Shown: positions 6,667-17,113 of the stretch, piece by piece
Numbering within the stretch: position 1 is the first letter of the stretch
How the letters are laid out: every line of letters begins with the position of its first letter
DNA from: Spirochaetota bacterium
GTDB taxonomy: Bacteria; Spirochaetota; UBA4802; UBA5550
Length of the DNA stretch: 64,000 nt
Reading direction: 5' to 3'
Assembly (NCBI GenBank): GCA_017999915.1
Contig: JAGNKX010000014.1
Span: 1-64,000, forward strand
The notes under the pieces: generated by a model
The model's input: only the letters and a program-made list of their open reading frames with translations
Told to the model about the DNA's origin: nothing
Database searches by the model: none
Made by a program: the position numbers and the translations under genes

Positions 6667-6712
6667 CTGATTATGTCTCTACATGGGCCATGTTCATGGT
6701 CGCGGTAAAGGA

Positions 6713-9700
6713 ATGGCTGAAGCGGAAGAAATAACATACACCCCTGAAGAGCTCGCAGAGATCGAGCGCATCGTTACCCTCATCGAACGGAGCGGCCACG
6801 GGATTCGCGGCGAGAAGGAAGCGGAAGCGCCGGCCGCGGCCGAGAAGGAAGAGGCTCCCGCCGTCGAAGAGGAATATCACCCCGCTCCCGATCAATTCGA
6901 GGAGCCGGCCGATCTTTCCCTCCCCTCCGTCGATCTGGATAGCCTCACCGGCGAACCGAAGCGGCCGGAGAAGCCGCGCGTCGAAGAGGAAGCCGCGCCT
7001 ATCGAGGACATTACCGGCTTGATCCATGAGGTCGAGGAAGAGGCGCCTCCGGTCGCCGCGGAGGAATATGCCGCACCCCCGGAAGAGAAGGCGAAGCCCG
7101 GGGGCCTGAGCCCCGTCGATGAGCTGGATTTTCTCACGGCCGAAGAACCGGAGTCGCTGGATCGCCACGAGCGGGCCCCGGCCGATGCCTTTGTCGAGGA
7201 GACGCCCGCGCCGAAGAAAGCCGAATCGCCTGTCTTCGAGGACATTGACCTTGCCGACCTCGGCGCCCCGAAGGACACGGAAGTGAAGGACCTGGGCTTC
7301 CTGGAGGAAACGGGCGAGGCCCCTGCCGGGAAGCCTTCGCCGGGCGTCACCCTTGAAAAAGAACAACCCGGGGAAATCCCCGATCTTTCAGATATATCCT
7401 TCGATGAAGGAAAGGTGGAAATGGCGGAAGCCCGGGAAGCGGACATCCCGGAACTGGATATTCCCGAAGCCGGCTCCGCGAAGGAGGCCCCGTCAGAGGC
7501 CGAGTTTGCCGAGCCCGAACCGACCATGGAAGAGCTTACGGACGATGACCTGGCTTCCATCAAGAGCGTTGAGGAATTGGGCGATGTTCCCCAGGTCAAG
7601 TCCTCGAAGGACATCATAAGCCAGGTTCAGCAAAAGAAAGAAGTACGGGAAGCAATGCCGGACCTGGAAGCGGATATTCCCGAATTGCCCGCCGTCGGGG
7701 AAGACCAATTCGAAGTTGAGATGCTGGAAGAAGAGCCGAAGCCCGCGAAAAAGGAGAAACCCTCCAGGCCCGCAGCGGAATCTCCCGCCGCGGAAAAGGG
7801 CGAAAAGGGCATCGATCTGTCCGATCACGATATCATGCGGCTCAAAAAGGCCATCCTCCTTTTCAACCCGGCCATACGCGAGGCGGTGAAGGATGTCGTG
7901 ATCAACGACCTCCTGCCGACGAAGGACACCCGCCAGCTCATCAACATGATCCTGGGCGGAAGACCCGAAGGCTCCATACAGAAGTACCTCGAGGAAAAGC
8001 TCGATAAGACCATCCCCCTCGTCGAGGAAAAGATCGGTCCGGCCCGCAGGGTCATTACCGCCCGGCCGGAGTACGCGGCCGGGGGGCGTGAGCGGCAGAA
8101 GAAGCTCCTTGCCATCACGGGGATCGCCGGGGCCGCCGCCATAGTCACCTGCGCGCTGGTGGTCCTCGGATACCAGTTCTTATACAAGCCGATGGCGGCC
8201 AAGCGCATGATCAAGCAGGGCGCGGCCTACATCCGCGAGAGCGGCGATTATCTCAAGAAGCCGAAGGATTATGCCAGGGCGGAGAAGCTCTTTCGCGAGG
8301 TTGACGAGGACTATGTCAGGGACTACTCGTTCGGATACACGGAGTATGCCCAGGCATATTTCGATAAAAGGGAATACGCCTTTTCCATTGAAAAGCTGAA
8401 CAAGCTCTATGATATACAGAGGAAGAAAGGCCAGGCCAATGACATCGACCTGCTGAACAAGCTGGGCTATTTCTATTCGAAGGTGCCGAAGGAATACTAC
8501 AATACCATGCGGCTCAATATCAACCGCTGGTATTATCCCGAAAGCGACAAGAAGCGCGAGGAATGGTCCCAGCTTGACGTGGCCATTGAAATGTACCGGC
8601 GCGTCCTCGTCAGGGACAGGAAGAACATCACGGCCCTCTTCGGCATCGGCAACGCCTATTTTTACCAGGGCCAGTACTTCAAGGCCAAGAAATATTACGA
8701 GGATATCGTCGATCTGGAGCCCGATTCCGAGATCGGGTACTCCGGCCTGCTGAACCTCTACATCGATCGGGACGTGTTCGAGAGGGTCATCGATATGCAT
8801 GCCGTGCTGTCCGAGAAGAAAATGATGTCCAATGTCCAGTCGTCCCTCCTGGCGAAGCTGGCGGCGTACTACCTGGACAAGCAGAAGTCGAAGACGTCTA
8901 ACGTGAGGATCGATTACGGGGTCCAGTCGCCCCGCTTCAAGGACAGTGATGACAATATATTCCCGGCGGTCATCGGCGTGCTGAGCGCCCTGAACAAGCG
9001 TGACAGCGATTATCCGCCCCTGCACCTGCAATACGCGAGGCTCAACAAGGCCCAGGACAATTTGAAGCTTATGAAGATCCACCTTGAAAAAGCGATCGAC
9101 CTCTCACGGAAGAATTACGACGCGGACTATTTCGGCGCGCTCCATCTTCTGGGAGAATACTATTACCTGAGCAAGGAGCCGGTGAAGGCCTATGAGACCC
9201 TGAACCGGGCCATCAAGGCAGCGGAGGCCCCCCCTGAATTCACCCGGGAGGACTTCTACAAGGAGACGGAGAGCACGGGCAAGTCCTACGCGCTCCTCGG
9301 AAACATCTTCTACTATTATTTCGACAAGGTCCGGATGCGCTACGGAGACCTCGAAGACGAGTCGATCGACCAGGACGATGAGCGGATGGGGAACTACCAG
9401 ATAGCGCGCGAAAAGTATGAAAAGGCCATCGATGAGGGATACGAGTCGTCCGAGGTGCATTACAACCTGGGCAGGATCTACTACCTGAACAGGCTCTACC
9501 AGAAGGCCCTTGACCAGTGGCTGAACCTCTACGAAGACTTTGCCGAGAACCCGGAGATCATGTTCGCCCTGGGCAACGCCTTCTACCACATGGGCAGCTA
9601 TGACGCGGCCAAGGGCGAATATCTGAAGCTCATATCGGCCTACGAATACGAGCTTGATAAAATGAAGATAGCCCGGCGCGACCTTCCCGGCCACGTGAAG

Positions 9701-9949
9701 CTCGTCCAGTTTCTGTCATCGACCTATAATAACCTGGGCGCCGTGTACCAGGGGAAGAACAACGAGTCGAAGAGCGAGATCAGCTTCTGGAAATCGATCG
9801 ATTACGCCCAGCTCATCAATTCCGACAACGAGTTCGCCCGCGTGAACCTGGCGCGCTCCTTCAGGAAAGAGGGCGGCGCAGGCGAGCCTATCCTGGACGA
9901 ATCGATCCCCTACAGCATGGAATACTACCGGCCGGAAATGCGTAAATAG
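6713..9949 (+). CDS. Large acidic-tail membrane TPR protein, FlcA-like (periplasmic flagellar collar candidate)
   Basis: About 1078 residues. The first ~370 are low-complexity and rich in Glu/Ala/Pro with repeated acidic motifs. A small helical segment follows (SDHDIMRLKKAILLFNPAI and DTRQLINMILGG). A single transmembrane helix (AITGIAGAAAIVTCALVVLG) lies near residue 465-490, then ~580 residues of tetratricopeptide repeats, e.g. ALFGIGNAYFYQGQYFKAKKYY. A cytoplasmic disordered region, one membrane span and periplasmic TPRs match the layout I recall for the spirochaete collar protein FlcA (Borrelia BB0236), required for periplasmic flagellar assembly. The identification rests on architecture and is tentative. 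ATG 6683 is possible but has no Shine-Dalgarno sequence and lies ~10 nt from the predicted transcript start. Confidence 0.72.
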   Translation: MAEAEEITYTPEELAEIERIVTLIERSGHGIRGEKEAEAPAAAEKEEAPAVEEEYHPAPDQFEEPADLSLPSVDLDSLTGEPKRPEKPRVEEEAAPIEDITGLIHEVEEEAPPVAAEEYAAPPEEKAKPGGLSPVDELDFLTAEEPESLDRHERAPADAFVEETPAPKKAESPVFEDIDLADLGAPKDTEVKDLGFLEETGEAPAGKPSPGVTLEKEQPGEIPDLSDISFDEGKVEMAEAREADIPELDIPEAGSAKEAPSEAEFAEPEPTMEELTDDDLASIKSVEELGDVPQVKSSKDIISQVQQKKEVREAMPDLEADIPELPAVGEDQFEVEMLEEEPKPAKKEKPSRPAAESPAAEKGEKGIDLSDHDIMRLKKAILLFNPAIREAVKDVVINDLLPTKDTRQLINMILGGRPEGSIQKYLEEKLDKTIPLVEEKIGPARRVITARPEYAAGGRERQKKLLAITGIAGAAAIVTCALVVLGYQFLYKPMAAKRMIKQGAAYIRESGDYLKKPKDYARAEKLFREVDEDYVRDYSFGYTEYAQAYFDKREYAFSIEKLNKLYDIQRKKGQANDIDLLNKLGYFYSKVPKEYYNTMRLNINRWYYPESDKKREEWSQLDVAIEMYRRVLVRDRKNITALFGIGNAYFYQGQYFKAKKYYEDIVDLEPDSEIGYSGLLNLYIDRDVFERVIDMHAVLSEKKMMSNVQSSLLAKLAAYYLDKQKSKTSNVRIDYGVQSPRFKDSDDNIFPAVIGVLSALNKRDSDYPPLHLQYARLNKAQDNLKLMKIHLEKAIDLSRKNYDADYFGALHLLGEYYYLSKEPVKAYETLNRAIKAAEAPPEFTREDFYKETESTGKSYALLGNIFYYYFDKVRMRYGDLEDESIDQDDERMGNYQIAREKYEKAIDEGYESSEVHYNLGRIYYLNRLYQKALDQWLNLYEDFAENPEIMFALGNAFYHMGSYDAAKGEYLKLISAYEYELDKMKIARRDLPGHVKLVQFLSSTYNNLGAVYQGKNNESKSEISFWKSIDYAQLINSDNEFARVNLARSFRKEGGAGEPILDESIPYSMEYYRPEMRK

Positions 9950-11933: not shown

Positions 11934-12785
11934 TCAGAAATGGAGAGTCCCTATCCTGTTGCCCATTCTTATCCTGTCGCCGGCCTTGAAATCATCGAAG
12001 GTGATGGCGCTTTTTTGAAAAAGAAGAATGATCGTCGATCCCAGGTGGAATGCGCCCAGCTCGTCGCCCGCTCGTACCGGGACCTGATCCGCCGGAGCGA
12101 AGAACACTTCCTCTCGTTTGCGAAACGTCCGGTTGGTCTGTGTTTTGCAATAGGACAGGGTTATGCGGCCCACGTTCATGGCGCCGATTTTGCATACTCC
12201 CACGGTGCCGGCCGCCGATTGAACGTATGAGATGATGCGCTCGTTTTTCACGAAAAGATCCGGAAGGCGGTTCACCATCCACTCCTGCACGGTGAAGAGG
12301 GTTCCGGGGAGGTTGTAATAGCCGATGACCGTGCCGTCGACCGGCGCGTGTATCCGGTGGTAGTCGCCCGGCGACAGGTAGAGGGTCATGAACGATCCCC
12401 AGAGAAATTTACGGTAGGTGTCGGAAGGGACCAGATTCTGGAGGGAGTACCCGATGCCCTTTGCCTGGATCACGGTGGTGTCCCTGATGTCGCCGAACTG
12501 GTCGATGCGCGCGTCAACGGGGGACACGGCCCAGTTGCCGGCCTGGTCGATGGGATGAGACCCCTCCTTCATTTTACGGGTGAAGAAATGATCCATGGTC
12601 CTGAACCCATTTTTAGGGACAATGTATTCATCCTTTACGCCGAATTTCGCGCTGTACCACCTGATAAAGGCGTTCATTAGCGACGGGGTGAGGGGTATCC
12701 GGGCGATGTATCCGAAGATGCGGGATAGAAGGCTTTTGGGTAGTATCCTGAAAAAGAACAGGGCCAGGGTTGTGGTGATGGTCAT
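11934..12785 (-). CDS. psd: Phosphatidylserine decarboxylase proenzyme
   Basis: 283 residues from ATG 12785, which has AAGGAG 6 nt upstream. The longer 400-codon frame adds sequence without homology. A hydrophobic N-terminal anchor precedes the PSD domain: AVSPVDARIDQFG, then SPGDYHRIHAPVDG with the catalytic-region histidines, and the LGST site at the end. Ser250 of that motif is the residue cleaved autocatalytically to give the pyruvoyl cofactor and the small alpha subunit. The enzyme makes phosphatidylethanolamine at the inner membrane. The gene appears monocistronic. A TTGACA with a poor -10 (TACCCA) lies upstream. Confidence 0.94.
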   Translation of the reverse strand: MTITTTLALFFFRILPKSLLSRIFGYIARIPLTPSLMNAFIRWYSAKFGVKDEYIVPKNGFRTMDHFFTRKMKEGSHPIDQAGNWAVSPVDARIDQFGDIRDTTVIQAKGIGYSLQNLVPSDTYRKFLWGSFMTLYLSPGDYHRIHAPVDGTVIGYYNLPGTLFTVQEWMVNRLPDLFVKNERIISYVQSAAGTVGVCKIGAMNVGRITLSYCKTQTNRTFRKREEVFFAPADQVPVRAGDELGAFHLGSTIILLFQKSAITFDDFKAGDRIRMGNRIGTLHF

Positions 12786-12998
12786 GACTGCTCCTTGTGG
12801 ATGCGTCCGGTTTTCGGGTAGACTTGATTGTGGGTAACCGGCCTGTAGCGCCGTGTCAAGTATTAAAAGGGAGACGGATATTCTCCCGGAGGGCCGTCCG
12901 AAGAGTTTCCCGGTTATATATAACTTGACATTCATCGGGGAGTGCCTCAGGGTTTGATGGATACCGGGGGAGGCCCAGAGTACACGGAAAACTATTCC

Positions 12999-13418
12999 AT
13001 GGGAACCATCTGCATAATCATGGCAATGTGCCTGCTGGCGGCACCGCCCGTCATTGCGAAAGATTCCTTCGCCCCCTGGGACGCGGACGTGGCAGTGGGG
13101 GATGAGGCCGTGGAGGGCCCGCCCGTCGCCGGCCATGGCCGGTGCGGCGCCGCCGCCGGGCCGGCCGCGGAGCGGGGCGTCTATGACGCCTATACCGGTG
13201 GCGCCGTGCTCCTGATCAGGGCGTTCCAGATCTGGATCTCGCCCCTGGACGGCCCCAGCTGCAGGTTCAGGCCCGTGTGCAGCGCCTACGGCAGGGAGGC
13301 GGTGCGGAGATACGGCGCCTTCCTCGGCGGCATACTGGCCGGGGACAGGATACTGCGCTGCAATATTTTCTCAACACCCGGCGATGACCCTGTCCCTGAC
13401 CTGATGCCGGTGAAATAG
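12999..13418 (+). CDS. yidD: YidD-type membrane protein insertion efficiency factor with signal-like N-terminal extension
   Basis: The C-terminal ~70 residues are YidD: LLIRAFQIWISPLDGPSCRF, then PVCSAYGREAVRRYG and RILRCNIFSTPG with DPVP, all family hallmarks. YidD normally has ~70-85 residues and assists YidC-dependent membrane insertion. Here about 70 extra N-terminal residues begin with a hydrophobic signal-like stretch (ICIIMAMCLLAAPPVIA), which is unusual. Start choice is uncertain: GTG 12942 and ATG 12957 are also in frame and none has a strong Shine-Dalgarno sequence. Two TPR/TM2-like membrane proteins follow in the same operon (2-bp gap to the next gene). Neither oxaA/yidC nor rnpA is here. 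Confidence 0.83.
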   Translation: MGTICIIMAMCLLAAPPVIAKDSFAPWDADVAVGDEAVEGPPVAGHGRCGAAAGPAAERGVYDAYTGGAVLLIRAFQIWISPLDGPSCRFRPVCSAYGREAVRRYGAFLGGILAGDRILRCNIFSTPGDDPVPDLMPVK

Positions 13419-13420
13419 GG

Positions 13421-14362
13421 ATGCCGGTGTTAAACAATGGGCGGCGTCGTCCGGCTATGGTGCATATCGGGATGAAATACCACCTTCTTGCGATTCTTCT
13501 ATTCGTCATATTCCCGGCGCCACGGGGCGCCTCCGCCGCTGAAAGCGACCTTGTCACAAGGCAAAAAATCTTCATCAGGGACCTTTTCGCCCAGAAGAGA
13601 TATTTCGATGTTATAACCGAAACGAGAAGGCTCATGGTCTTCGATCGGGGTGACGGGAATCGCCGGGATTACAACTTTTTCATTAATATTAATTATTTCC
13701 TCGGCGGACAGTACCGCTCCGTGGTGGCTGCCATGGCCTCCCGGTCCGGACCCCGCGACAGCCGGGAGAGCATCCTGTTGTCGCAGGCATACCTGAAGCT
13801 GGGCCTGTGCGGCCCGGCCCTGGAAACGGCGGCGCCGGTCTCCTACGGAGCGGTGGAGGCGCCGCGGCGATACCCCCTGCTGGCGCGGAAGGCCGAAGCC
13901 TATATCCAGTGCGGCCTCTACCGGGAGCTGGTAGAGGAAGTGCGTGCCGCGGAGCGGCATGTGCCTGACGGGGACCGGCTCCGCCTCCTCAGCGAAGAGG
14001 CCGAGGGGTACAGGCGAATACCATTCAAATCGGTCCCTCTGGCCGTGGCCCTTTCTGTGTTTATCCCCGGCGCGGGGCAGATGTACGCGGGCAAGTGGCT
14101 CCAGGGAGCGGTGAGCTTCGTGGGGGTGGCGGCCCTGGCCGGAGGGGCTTTCCTGCTCCACCGCCAGGGGCATAGGAATCTCGCGTACACCTTTATCGCC
14201 TTTTCATCGGTCTTTTATCTCGGCACCATTTACGGCGCCTTTAACGCGGCGCGCTCGGTAAACGAGGACCTTGAGGGCGCCTATAGGGAAAAAGTGAAAA
14301 AGCGGTGCGAGCCGGCCTATGACCCGGTTGAAGAGGTCAGGGACAACAGGGTATTCCGATGA
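13421..14362 (+). CDS. Exported TPR-like protein with C-terminal TM2-like membrane domain (paralogue 1)
   Basis: 313 residues. A signal sequence (YHLLAILLFVIFPAPRGASA) is followed by a soluble helical region with TPR-like spacing. The C-terminal membrane domain (about 205-290) contains SVFIPGAGQMYAGKWLQGA and ends with YGAFNAARSVNEDLE. The PGxGQxYxGxxxxG signature and paired helices recall TM2/DUF5683-type domains. Function is unknown. The start is taken at ATG 13421, 2 bp after yidD, but ATG 13472 (MKYHLL) would give a cleaner signal peptide. The next gene encodes a paralogue with the same layout. Confidence 0.8.
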   Translation: MPVLNNGRRRPAMVHIGMKYHLLAILLFVIFPAPRGASAAESDLVTRQKIFIRDLFAQKRYFDVITETRRLMVFDRGDGNRRDYNFFININYFLGGQYRSVVAAMASRSGPRDSRESILLSQAYLKLGLCGPALETAAPVSYGAVEAPRRYPLLARKAEAYIQCGLYRELVEEVRAAERHVPDGDRLRLLSEEAEGYRRIPFKSVPLAVALSVFIPGAGQMYAGKWLQGAVSFVGVAALAGGAFLLHRQGHRNLAYTFIAFSSVFYLGTIYGAFNAARSVNEDLEGAYREKVKKRCEPAYDPVEEVRDNRVFR

Positions 14363-14393
14363 CGGCGTCACCGGGTTCAACGGGGAGGTCACG

Positions 14394-15251
14394 TTGAGAA
14401 AGATTCTTGTCGCGGCATTCCTGGTCCTGGCCGCGTGGCGCGGCGCCCTGGCCGGGGGAGAGGATGTCATGGCGATGGCCCTCCGCTTCTACTCAGCCGG
14501 CGATTATTACGCCGCCATTACCGAGGCCATGCGCTACCAGTGCCTCTATCCCGGGGGCCCCCTGTCGGGGAAAAGCATGCTCCTCCTGGGAAAGGCCTAT
14601 TATAAAGGGGGGAACTATCGGGCCGCCCTGAACGTCTTCACCTCCATCCACCGTTCCCATGACGGGAAGGATGACGGGGATGAGGCGCTCTACCTGGCGG
14701 GGTTCGTCCATCTCATGAAGGGCTTGCCCGCGGAGGCGGACAGGCTCCGGGACCTGTACCGGGCGGCATACCGGAAGGGCCGTTTCATGGAGGAAACTGA
14801 CCGCGACGCCTGCTTTGCGGCGGTCCTTGAATCGAACGTTCCAGGGTCCCTGCGGGTCATCGCCTCGTACCGGGAGCGGTACCCGCGGGGCAAGTACGGG
14901 GGGGACCTGGACCGGCTGGAAAAAACCATTGCAGAAGAATCGGGAAGGCCGCGGCGGCACCTGTGGCTCGGGGTCCTGGGGTCGGCTTTTTTCCCGGGGT
15001 TCGGTCAATTCTACACCGGGAACTATGCGGTGGGGTTCCTCACCCTGTTCACGAATGCCCTGTGCGCCTTCATGATGTACGACGGGCACCGGCGCCATGA
15101 CACCTGCCAGATGGTCTTTTTCGGCATAGCCGGCGGCATCGTGTACGGATACAACCTCTTTGGCGCCGTGCGTACGGTGAATGAATTCAACGAGAAGCGG
15201 GACAGGGAGCTGTTCCGGCGGGTGCGGCTCGGAATTACCGCGTCATTCTAG
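14394..15251 (+). CDS. Exported TPR-like protein with C-terminal TM2-like membrane domain (paralogue 2)
   Basis: 285 residues from a TTG start at 14394. GGGAGG lies about 6 nt upstream, and the resulting N-terminus is a clean signal peptide (RKILVAAFLVLAAWRGALA). The ATG at 14319 overlaps the preceding gene and would bury the signal. A TPR-like region (MALRFYSAGDYYAAITEAM; LLLGKAYYKGGNYRAAL) is followed by a membrane domain with SAFFPGFGQFYTGNYAVGF and ending YGYNLFGAVRTVNEFNEK, clearly paralogous to the preceding protein. Together with yidD this makes a three-gene operon of unknown role, perhaps in outer-envelope or membrane protein biogenesis. Confidence 0.8.
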   Translation: MRKILVAAFLVLAAWRGALAGGEDVMAMALRFYSAGDYYAAITEAMRYQCLYPGGPLSGKSMLLLGKAYYKGGNYRAALNVFTSIHRSHDGKDDGDEALYLAGFVHLMKGLPAEADRLRDLYRAAYRKGRFMEETDRDACFAAVLESNVPGSLRVIASYRERYPRGKYGGDLDRLEKTIAEESGRPRRHLWLGVLGSAFFPGFGQFYTGNYAVGFLTLFTNALCAFMMYDGHRRHDTCQMVFFGIAGGIVYGYNLFGAVRTVNEFNEKRDRELFRRVRLGITASF

Positions 15252-15312: not shown

Positions 15313-15960
15313 ATGGATGATTTCCTGGGCGGCGGCAGGGTCGAGGACCTGTACAAGAGCCAGATCTTTAATTTCGACGATTTTTTAAAAAACGACAATC
15401 TCGCGGAAGTGGCGGAGCGCATGACCGAGGGCGCCCTGGACATGGCGGATTTCATGCGCAAGGATATCATCGACCGGTTCCTTGATTTCGTTTTCTTCAA
15501 GGTGCAGACCGGCAATGTCGACCTGCCCAGCCTGGCCTATCCGACCAAGCGGATGCTTGATGGCGTACTAGAGAAAAAGGTTATCGAGCTGATCAACGAG
15601 CACCTGTACCCGGAGATCATTTTCAGGCTCCTCAAGTTCTTCACCCGGAACATCCATGACGCGGACACGAACCTCTACGTAGCCAACCTGATTTATTCGG
15701 AGGACATCATAAGGTCCATCTATGACACCTACAAGCTCTTTAAGAAGGACATCTTCGACGGCGACCGTGACCGGAGGACCCTCAACGTGAAGAGGATGCA
15801 GCAGTATTCGCCCCGATCGGACAACCGGATGTCCTCGCCCCTGGACGCGGCGGCGCGGCTGAAGTACATCCTGGAGTTTTTCCTTGTAAAGTACCCGTCA
15901 TTGCGTATCTATTCCCGTGAAGACCTGCTCATATCGCGGGAGGGCGAGGGCGGCGCTTAG
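15313..15960 (+). CDS. Uncharacterised protein, helical
   Basis: 215 residues, not recognised. It is rich in charged and aromatic residues, mostly helical by composition, with no signal peptide or transmembrane segment. Noticeable stretches are SQIFNFDDFLKNDNL, ADFMRKDIIDRFLDFVFF and a C-terminal LKYILEFFLVKYPSLRIYS. ATG 15313 has GGAGGG closely upstream. The gene is convergent with the following minus-strand gene, whose stop codon overlaps by 3 nt. The clean start site and base composition support a real gene; I assign no function. Confidence 0.72.
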   Translation: MDDFLGGGRVEDLYKSQIFNFDDFLKNDNLAEVAERMTEGALDMADFMRKDIIDRFLDFVFFKVQTGNVDLPSLAYPTKRMLDGVLEKKVIELINEHLYPEIIFRLLKFFTRNIHDADTNLYVANLIYSEDIIRSIYDTYKLFKKDIFDGDRDRRTLNVKRMQQYSPRSDNRMSSPLDAAARLKYILEFFLVKYPSLRIYSREDLLISREGEGGA

Positions 15961-16421
15961 CTCCCCCGGTGGCCGATGATTTTTTCCACGACATCGTCCT
16001 CGCTTCGCTGCACCTCGTTGATGTAGATGTTCTCGAAGCGCTGCGAGTCCTTGAACATCGCTTCGTTGAAGCGCGGGCGGTAGGTTCGTATCAGCCAGTA
16101 CATGATGTCCTGCATGTCCATCATGTTCCCTTCGTCTATGACCGTGAACTTGTAGTAGAGCCGGGTCAGGTCAAGCTCCCTGATGATCTCCGGGTGCCGG
16201 GTCGCGTAGGGGTCCATGAATTTCTTGAATCCCACCCTGCAGCCGTCGCGGTGGCAGCTGTAGAAGATCAGGTGCTCATTGCGGGACTGGTTCCGGTACA
16301 GAAGGCTTATGATGCCGCCCAGCTCCGGCATTTTCCTCATCGCGTCGAAGCGGTCATAGGGATATAGGGGAGACCACGCCAGGGTGAAGTACACGTCCTT
16401 GCCAATCACTGTCTTTTTCAT
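15957..16421 (-). CDS. Uncharacterised protein co-encoded with the LonN-domain protein
   Basis: 154 residues, not recognised. It starts MKKTVIGKDVYFTLAWSPLY, has HLIFYSCHRDGCRVGFKKF with two cysteines, and ends with a charged helical tail. There is no signal peptide. Its start overlaps the stop of the upstream Lon-N-domain gene by 4 bp, so the two are translationally coupled and likely act together. Confidence 0.75.
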   Translation of the reverse strand: MKKTVIGKDVYFTLAWSPLYPYDRFDAMRKMPELGGIISLLYRNQSRNEHLIFYSCHRDGCRVGFKKFMDPYATRHPEIIRELDLTRLYYKFTVIDEGNMMDMQDIMYWLIRTYRPRFNEAMFKDSQRFENIYINEVQRSEDDVVEKIIGHRGS

Positions 16422-17017
16422 ACGGGGCTCTTGTTCCTTTTTTTTGTTAACCTGCGTATCAGGTTCATCAGCTCGACCGTCAGCATCCTGCTCCGATTGA
16501 CGACGTCGGTTTCCCGGTACAGCCGGTAGCGCGCGGGAAAATCCATCACGAAGTAATTCGCGATGAAATCGGTCATCTGGTTCAGGTCGACGATGTAATT
16601 CAGCAGCTTGATCAGCTTGTCCGATTCCTCGACATTGATGAGAAAAACCAGCTCCTGCGCTTTTTTCCGGAGCGTTTCGTTTGTCCCGTCATGGGGATCG
16701 GCCGTCCGGGGAGGCGGCGTCCGGAATTCTGCCGACCGGTAGTTGATGAACCTTGTCACGCTCACCCGGGACAGGCCCTTGAGCGTTATTTTTGTCGATC
16801 CGCCCTCCGGCTCTATCTCCACGACCTCCGACAGCGTCGCAAGCCTCTCTCTGCGCCATGCCATGTCAAGGGTGGAGCGAACGGTGACGGCGAGAATCCG
16901 GTCGCCCGCGCGAATATCTTTCGAGTCCTCGGTCGGCTTTATAAAAACGGCCATCGTGCAATAAGGGAATATGATTTTTCTTTTTAAAAAAAATGTTTTT
17001 AACGTAACCTGTTCCAT
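16418..17017 (-). CDS. Stand-alone Lon substrate-binding (LonN) domain protein
   Basis: 199 residues from ATG 17017. The pattern KIIFPYCTMAVFI, DRILAVTVRS, LSEVVEIEPEGGSTKITLKGLSR (interrupted here by VSVTRF) and the helical part QMTDFIANYFVMD then LYRETDVVNRSRML matches the N-terminal domain of Lon proteases. No AAA+ or protease domain is attached. Such solitary LonN proteins exist in many bacteria with no known role; substrate capture or adaptor function is a guess. The upstream frame to 17113 is excluded because a near-consensus promoter occupies 17085-17113. No clear Shine-Dalgarno sequence precedes 17017. Confidence 0.82.
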   Translation of the reverse strand: MEQVTLKTFFLKRKIIFPYCTMAVFIKPTEDSKDIRAGDRILAVTVRSTLDMAWRRERLATLSEVVEIEPEGGSTKITLKGLSRVSVTRFINYRSAEFRTPPPRTADPHDGTNETLRKKAQELVFLINVEESDKLIKLLNYIVDLNQMTDFIANYFVMDFPARYRLYRETDVVNRSRMLTVELMNLIRRLTKKRNKSPV

Positions 17018-17084
17018 AGCGTTGGTGGAAAGGGCGGAGCCGGATACGACGGTCTTCCCGCTTCCGTCCGCGTTGTTCCGGGGG

Positions 17085-17113
17085 AGTATACAAAAAAAGG
17101 CCCTATTTGTCAA
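17085..17113 (-). promoter_or_regulatory. Near-consensus sigma-70 promoter for the LonN-domain operon
   Basis: On the minus strand, TTGACA (17108-17113) and TATACT (17085-17090) are separated by exactly 17 bp. Transcription would begin near 17078, about 60 nt before the LonN-domain start. This is one of the two best-looking promoters in the window. Confidence 0.82.

Follow-up and report, generated by a model that had tools for sequence, protein, structure and literature searches.

The 64,000-nucleotide window analyzed here, positions 1 to 64,000 of contig JAGNKX010000014.1 from a Spirochaetota genome, carries three consecutive same-strand genes that encode an extended YidD (YidDx) and two paralogous proteins (P2 and P3), each combining a TPR-like region with a membrane hairpin (Table 1). 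We propose, with a probability of about 0.5, that these proteins form a complex which assists the Sec translocon from the periplasmic face of the inner membrane. This reading rests on the conserved three-gene order, natural gene fusions, secDF neighborhoods, a separate branch of the YidD tree and the presence of a second, standard YidD in the same genome.

Table 1 Features of the YidDx operon and its flanks, in window coordinates.
Feature	Positions	Strand	Basis
Phosphatidylserine decarboxylase (PSD), divergent neighbor	11934..12806	-	PF02666, 186 bits
YidDx (extended YidD, 139 aa)	12999..13418	+	PF01809 and TIGR00278 matches
Signal-like N-terminus of YidDx	12999..13058	+	likely cleavage after residue 20; signal rule passed by 31/34 orthologues
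YidD domain of YidDx, with SPxDGPxC..xPxCS and RCN motifs	13206..13394	+	profile match, motifs
P2 (signal-like start, TPR-like region, membrane hairpin)	13421..14362	+	reading frame, alignment
PGxGQxYxG hairpin domain of P2	14027..14305	+	alignment; match to C-terminal domain of fusions, E 1.2e-23
P3 (P2 paralogue, TTG start)	14394..15251	+	reading frame, hhalign; open frame from 14319
TPR superhelix of P3 (residues 20-186)	14451..14951	+	AF2 model; YfiO 36.5 bits, cut-off 25
PGxGQxYxG hairpin of P3 (residues 186-260)	14949..15173	+	AF2 model; match to C-terminal domain of fusions, E 1.5e-14
Conserved Phe-ending C-terminal tail of P3	15216..15248	+	28-sequence comparison
P4, conserved gene 3' of P3	15313..15960	+	kept in 31/36 loci

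The operon is flanked by the minus-strand PSD gene and by P4, and the P2 frame begins 2 bp past the end of YidDx. The first-pass annotation had described a YidD with a signal-like extension at position 12999, followed by two exported TPR/hairpin paralogues; the YidD, its extension and the frames, all on the plus strand, are present as described, and the paralogy of P2 and P3 is borne out by full-length homology, whereas their export is a prediction from signal-like N-termini. P4 and an opposite-strand pair, encoding a 154 aa protein and a LON-substrate-domain protein (together 15313-17113), adjoin the operon in the majority of the order's genomes; Pfam searches with P4 and with the 154 aa protein returned nothing above a family cut-off. 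Upstream, several relatives keep a TPR-rich protein of 1088 aa whose N-terminal part contains a long acidic stretch (6683-9949). Scanning for promoters and terminators showed no clear surplus relative to shuffled sequences.

YidDx scores well above the thresholds of both YidD models (76.8 bits for PF01809, cut-off 27; 73.7 bits for TIGR00278, cut-off 40), and its residues C88, C94 and C121 are invariant across the 33 sequences aligned. An FxPW motif, in which P26 and W27 are conserved at 90% or more, lies just behind the signal-like segment. The gene was read from the ATG at 12999, with a longer alternative GTG start at 12942; a mis-annotated start is ruled out by the conservation of the extension, the signal-like segment and the FxPW motif, together with the standard YidD elsewhere in the genome. 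N-termini were assessed with a crude rule, as opposed to a trained predictor, requiring a hydrophobic core of mean hydropathy of at least 2.2 and a -3,-1 cleavage site. Besides the YidDx orthologues counted in Table 1, 30/35 P2 sequences (a count that takes in a few paralogues labeled P2 by best score) and 27/27 P3 sequences passed; among neighboring genes the figures were 0/25 for P4, 0/11 for a cytidylate-kinase-like gene, 3/22 for the LON-domain protein and 8/13 for PSD, a membrane-associated enzyme. From the sequence features of its N-terminus we infer that YidDx is exported. The predicted structure of YidDx says little (pLDDT 74, pTM 0.53); a sequence search of the PDB gave no hits, and a Foldseek fold search gave no relative (best E 6.3). 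Searching plasmids with YidDx returned 66 records, all of them short-domain YidDs and none reaching 80% query coverage; several of the matches listed were annotated yidD, some beside rnpA.

Canonical YidD (PF01809/TIGR00278), the membrane protein insertion efficiency factor, shares with YidDx the domain, the three Cys and the RCN and DPVP motifs, to which YidDx adds the signal-like extension, the FxPW motif and an SPQDGPNC signature. The source genome encodes a standard YidD as well (C1:482148-482345), in the order rnpA-yidD-yidC-jag followed by an mnmE/trmE-like gene (rnpA, yidC and jag identified by Pfam, mnmE by reading); the YidDx gene itself does not lie between rnpA and yidC. The concern raised at the outset, that this might be the only yidD of the genome with a misplaced start, is thereby answered: YidDx is neither the sole copy nor mis-started. 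Among 143 distinct YidD loci, a count that left out those with an unmatched Cys pattern such as L152, L158 and L162, 50 had rnpA/yidC neighbors only, 57 had a TPR-hairpin partner only, 15 were fused and 13 had neither, while 8 were left unclassified because a contig end was less than 400 bases away. The two kinds of neighbor occurred together in none of the 143. Partnered YidDs carry a median of 80 residues ahead of the first Cys, against 33 in canonical ones, and in a tree of 124 YidD domains a single branch (support 96/97) parts the extended and fused proteins from the canonical; the extended/fused side comprises 67 rows, five of them unclassified, and the inner order of the tree, derived from 74 columns, is unreliable. 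The first-pass suggestion of an envelope biogenesis module distinct from the rnpA-yidD-yidC cluster therefore stands as to distinctness; the biogenesis role is a prediction, narrowed toward Sec export by the secDF neighborhoods described below. Because all 33 extended YidD proteins exceed the TIGR00278 equivalog cut-off, NCBI equivalog annotation cannot separate them from canonical YidD. Degenerate YidDs with the RCNP motif replaced (e.g. FYREN) were seen at L071, L073 and L158-L160, some keeping a TPR-hairpin partner, and a weak, stop-containing YidD-like stretch at L079 was excluded from the counts.

P2 and P3 are full-length homologs of each other (hhalign E 4e-27 over 273 columns), both having a signal-like N-terminus, TPR-like repeats and the PGxGQxYxG hairpin (PGAGQMYAG and PGFGQFYTG, respectively). 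P2 probably starts at ATG 13457 or 13472, more likely than at 13421, and P3 probably at the TTG given in Table 1 within its longer open frame. An AF2 model of P3 built from 28 sequences (pLDDT 91.8 over the whole protein) predicts a TPR superhelix, then a helix that the PGFG motif interrupts, and finally a pair of long helices. The TPR part aligns structurally with YbgF/CpoB (2xev, Z 16.3), BamD (Z 15.3) and YfgM (8zht_B, Z 15.0), but since nearly all fold matches fall in this part and tie with many unrelated TPR proteins, the fold alone names no function, whether YfgM-like or BamD-like. By sequence, P3 exceeds the Pfam YfiO cut-off, and 27/28 orthologues match YfiO at E≤0.1. We nevertheless reject the classification of P3 as a BamD: no Cys lies near the end of the signal-like segment of P3 in the window sequence, as in a lipobox, the protein reaches 33 bits against the TIGR03302 (BamD) cut-off of 81.4, and a stronger YfiO-like match is found elsewhere in the same genome. 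The sequence match to YfgM (PF09976) is negligible, involving 1/28 P3 orthologues at E 0.048, and a PF09976-type protein is present elsewhere in the source genome.

The hairpin had initially been labeled TM2-like. We find a weak resemblance to TM2 (PF05154) for P3, with 17/28 orthologues at E≤0.1 and the window protein not listed among them, and to DUF5683 (PF18935) for P2 (16.4 bits, cut-off 26.7), the window proteins reaching the cut-off of neither family. Positive charges flank the hairpin on either side and hence do not fix its topology. The last residue of P3 is Phe in 28/28 sequences and positions -5, -7 and -9 are hydrophobic in all 28; partner proteins of spirochaete family f22 have strongly alternating tails with a terminal Phe or Tyr. 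Such a Phe-ending tail resembles the beta-signal of outer-membrane beta-barrel proteins. In the P3 model, however, the tail is a helix of dropping confidence (68 in the last block), and beta alternation exceeded helical periodicity in only 15/28 tails, compared with 46/168 control windows.

Within the order, sampled as 46 genomes including the source genome, an extended YidD is encoded in 36. The ten genomes without it are G002, G010, G012, G015, G021, G026, G030, G031, G038 and G043, and in G015, G030 and G038 the YidD search gave no match at all. P2 is the next gene in 35 of the 36 loci and a distinct P3 is present in 33, a figure that leaves out L043 and L049, where the P3 probe matched the P2 gene. 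The exceptions are L045, an extended YidD without partners, L049, with P2 and no P3, and L043, which ends at a contig end. Conservation of the gene order in relatives, the lack of which would have refuted the first-pass reading, extends through the order and into Neomarinimicrobiota. Selection on the three genes is purifying, with dN/dS of 0.14-0.40 for YidDx, 0.15-0.22 for P2 and 0.20-0.27 for P3 in the 10 of 12 comparisons that gave a finite dS. PSD lies divergently upstream in 18/36 loci.

Scanning a collection of 84,980 species with the YidDx alignment yielded 34 loci, 31 assigned to spirochaetes (one of them, L102, titled only 'uncultured bacterium') and 3 to Candidatus Neomarinimicrobiota; the scan patterns favor this order and miss divergent members, as the fusions demonstrate. 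All three Neomarinimicrobiota loci (L115-L117) have an extended YidD followed by two TPR-hairpin genes. A sample of 80 genomes from that phylum, from which 36 YidD loci were retrieved, chosen mostly for long frames, added five separate three-gene operons (L130-L134; HMM E down to 7e-26) and a more divergent one (L150). In 22 of the 80 genomes YidD is fused to a hairpin, in the layout signal-like start, YidD, PGxGRxYAG hairpin. Profile comparison matches the C-terminal domain of these fusions to the hairpins of both P2 and P3 (E values in Table 1), against E of at least 0.38 for all eleven shuffled or unrelated controls; the hairpin of the fusions is that of P2 and P3. Other spirochaete families, f22 and f27, encode an extended YidD with one or two TPR-hairpin partners (L167, L168, L170, L171, L173 and L174). 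A short conserved protein ending GKTMTEIExxEGLRK is encoded upstream of YidDx in Neomarinimicrobiota L115, L116 and L130-L134, and a Pfam search of two copies gave no match.

The connection to Sec comes from a third TPR-hairpin paralogue in the source genome (C25:33156-34034, L201:5157-6035; E 7.3e-25), which sits in the order yajC-(218 aa)-secD-secF-[TPR-hairpin]-ribD-ribE (ribE named by reading). A TPR-hairpin gene lies directly 3' of secF in 6/41 SecF loci. These comprise every one of the six loci that come from this order; the remaining 35 have no such gene there, although in L215 a TPR protein of weak similarity is encoded two genes further along. Outside this 41-locus set, two genomes from two other spirochaete families carry secD-secF-YidDx-TPR-hairpin (G056) and secD-secF-YidDx (G047). 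In L115 of Neomarinimicrobiota the operon is followed by a short reading frame and then ribD, ribE and more riboflavin genes (named by reading); because L115 shares these right-hand neighbors with the secF-linked paralogue, an ancestral secDF-YidDx-TPR-hairpin-rib locus is suggested. Several observations count against a Sec accessory: the secF-linked paralogue has no YidD beside it, the window operon adjoins PSD and not sec genes, G145, G150, G167 and G172 have a bare secDF locus with the extended or partnered YidD elsewhere, and the extended YidD is dispensable, being absent from each of the four f3 genomes sampled. The bare secDF loci also speak against the ancestral locus.

In the mechanism we propose, exported YidDx would lie on or in the outer leaflet of the inner membrane through an amphipathic helix, with P2 and P3 anchored beside it by their PGxGQxYxG hairpins, a contact that the natural YidD-hairpin fusions suggest. 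The TPR arms of P2 and P3, held in the periplasm, might catch chains leaving SecYEG/SecDF and aid their folding, insertion or hand-over, in the manner of YfgM-PpiD in E. coli. Complex formation, Sec binding, activity and the step accelerated are what we infer here. Cross-linking places YidD of E. coli on the list of Sec contacts (PMC8082313), YfgM-PpiD is described as a SecYEG ancillary that promotes translocation in E. coli (PMC9643414, PMC8082313), and SecDF and YidC are described as contacting BAM (PMC7695460). The proposal could be extended to a coupler between the two membranes, in which exported YidD and the hairpin anchors occupy the exit of Sec and the BamD-like TPR arm and the invariant Phe-ending, beta-signal-like tail of P3 dock on BAM or mimic a client; we regard this extension as distinctly unlikely, and if true it would constitute a dedicated Sec-to-BAM bridge for outer-membrane proteins, absent from model organisms.

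Several other explanations have to be weighed against a Sec accessory complex. The operon could act downstream of Sec in the assembly of outer-membrane proteins or lipoproteins, P3 being a BamD-like receptor for the signals of outer-membrane proteins that YidDx and P2 anchor at the inner membrane. The YfiO matches of P3 and its orthologues fit this scheme, as do the terminal Phe present in every sequence and the hydrophobic positions -5, -7 and -9, and also the location of a YidD/TPR-hairpin pair 3' of a LolA-like gene in family f5 (L065, L067 and L069), a third and divergent such pair. The LolA-like match in L069 (PF17131) is however 17.5 bits against a cut-off of 30, the features that separate P3 from BamD apply equally here, and the secDF neighborhood favors the inner membrane, leaving this scheme unlikely. 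Somewhat more improbable, in our estimate, is that YidDx is a diverged YidD duplicate with an uncleaved N-terminal anchor that works on the cytoplasmic side as a helper of YidC in membrane-protein insertion, P2 and P3 being substrates or scaffolds. All 33 members exceeding the YidD equivalog cut-off and the retention of all three Cys agree with such a duplicate, whereas type-I-like cleavage sites follow the hydrophobic core, extended YidDs have their own signature and tree branch, and a partnered YidD never adjoins yidC in the 143 loci.

A role in phospholipid homeostasis, for example the placement of PE near membrane-protein assembly, would account for the divergent PSD found in half of the loci of the order. 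We consider it very improbable: PSD is on the opposite strand, at a spacing that runs from overlap to about 4.4 kb, and is not among the nearest neighbors of the Neomarinimicrobiota or f22 operons read. As for chance adjacency or a functionless, decaying duplication, with which absence from f3 and from further genomes in the order would be compatible, the order kept in two phyla, purifying selection and the fusions rule it out for practical purposes.

If the operon encodes a Sec accessory complex, one of its closest known analogues is YfgM-PpiD, YfgM being an inner-membrane-anchored periplasmic TPR protein with which the TPR part of P3 aligns. YfgM has an N-terminal anchor and PpiD as partner, whereas P2 and P3 have a signal-like start, a C-terminal hairpin and a YidD partner. 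P3 likewise shares its TPR domain with BamD/YfiO and CpoB/YbgF, and differs from them in having a C-terminal membrane hairpin and no lipobox. The PGxGQxYxG hairpin recalls DUF5683 and TM2 proteins, but here it forms part of a TPR protein or of YidD; and unlike canonical YidD, the extended form occurs without rnpA/yidC neighbors, with TPR-hairpin partners or a fused hairpin domain. A search of the open-access literature, with most subscription papers outside its scope, found no exported YidD module, no exported or second YidD and no function for DUF5683. The operon joins known domains in a conserved arrangement for which we found no description, and its connection to Sec is likely.

YidD is very widespread, and its mechanism is largely open. 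Here a YidD has apparently been moved across the membrane, with fixed partners and even as a fusion, which offers handles on its partner, its leaflet and its Sec membership. The NCBI equivalog model does not distinguish this apparently exported type. The TPR-hairpin proteins, in this order also neighbors of secDF, would form a Sec-linked family for which no dedicated curated entry exists.
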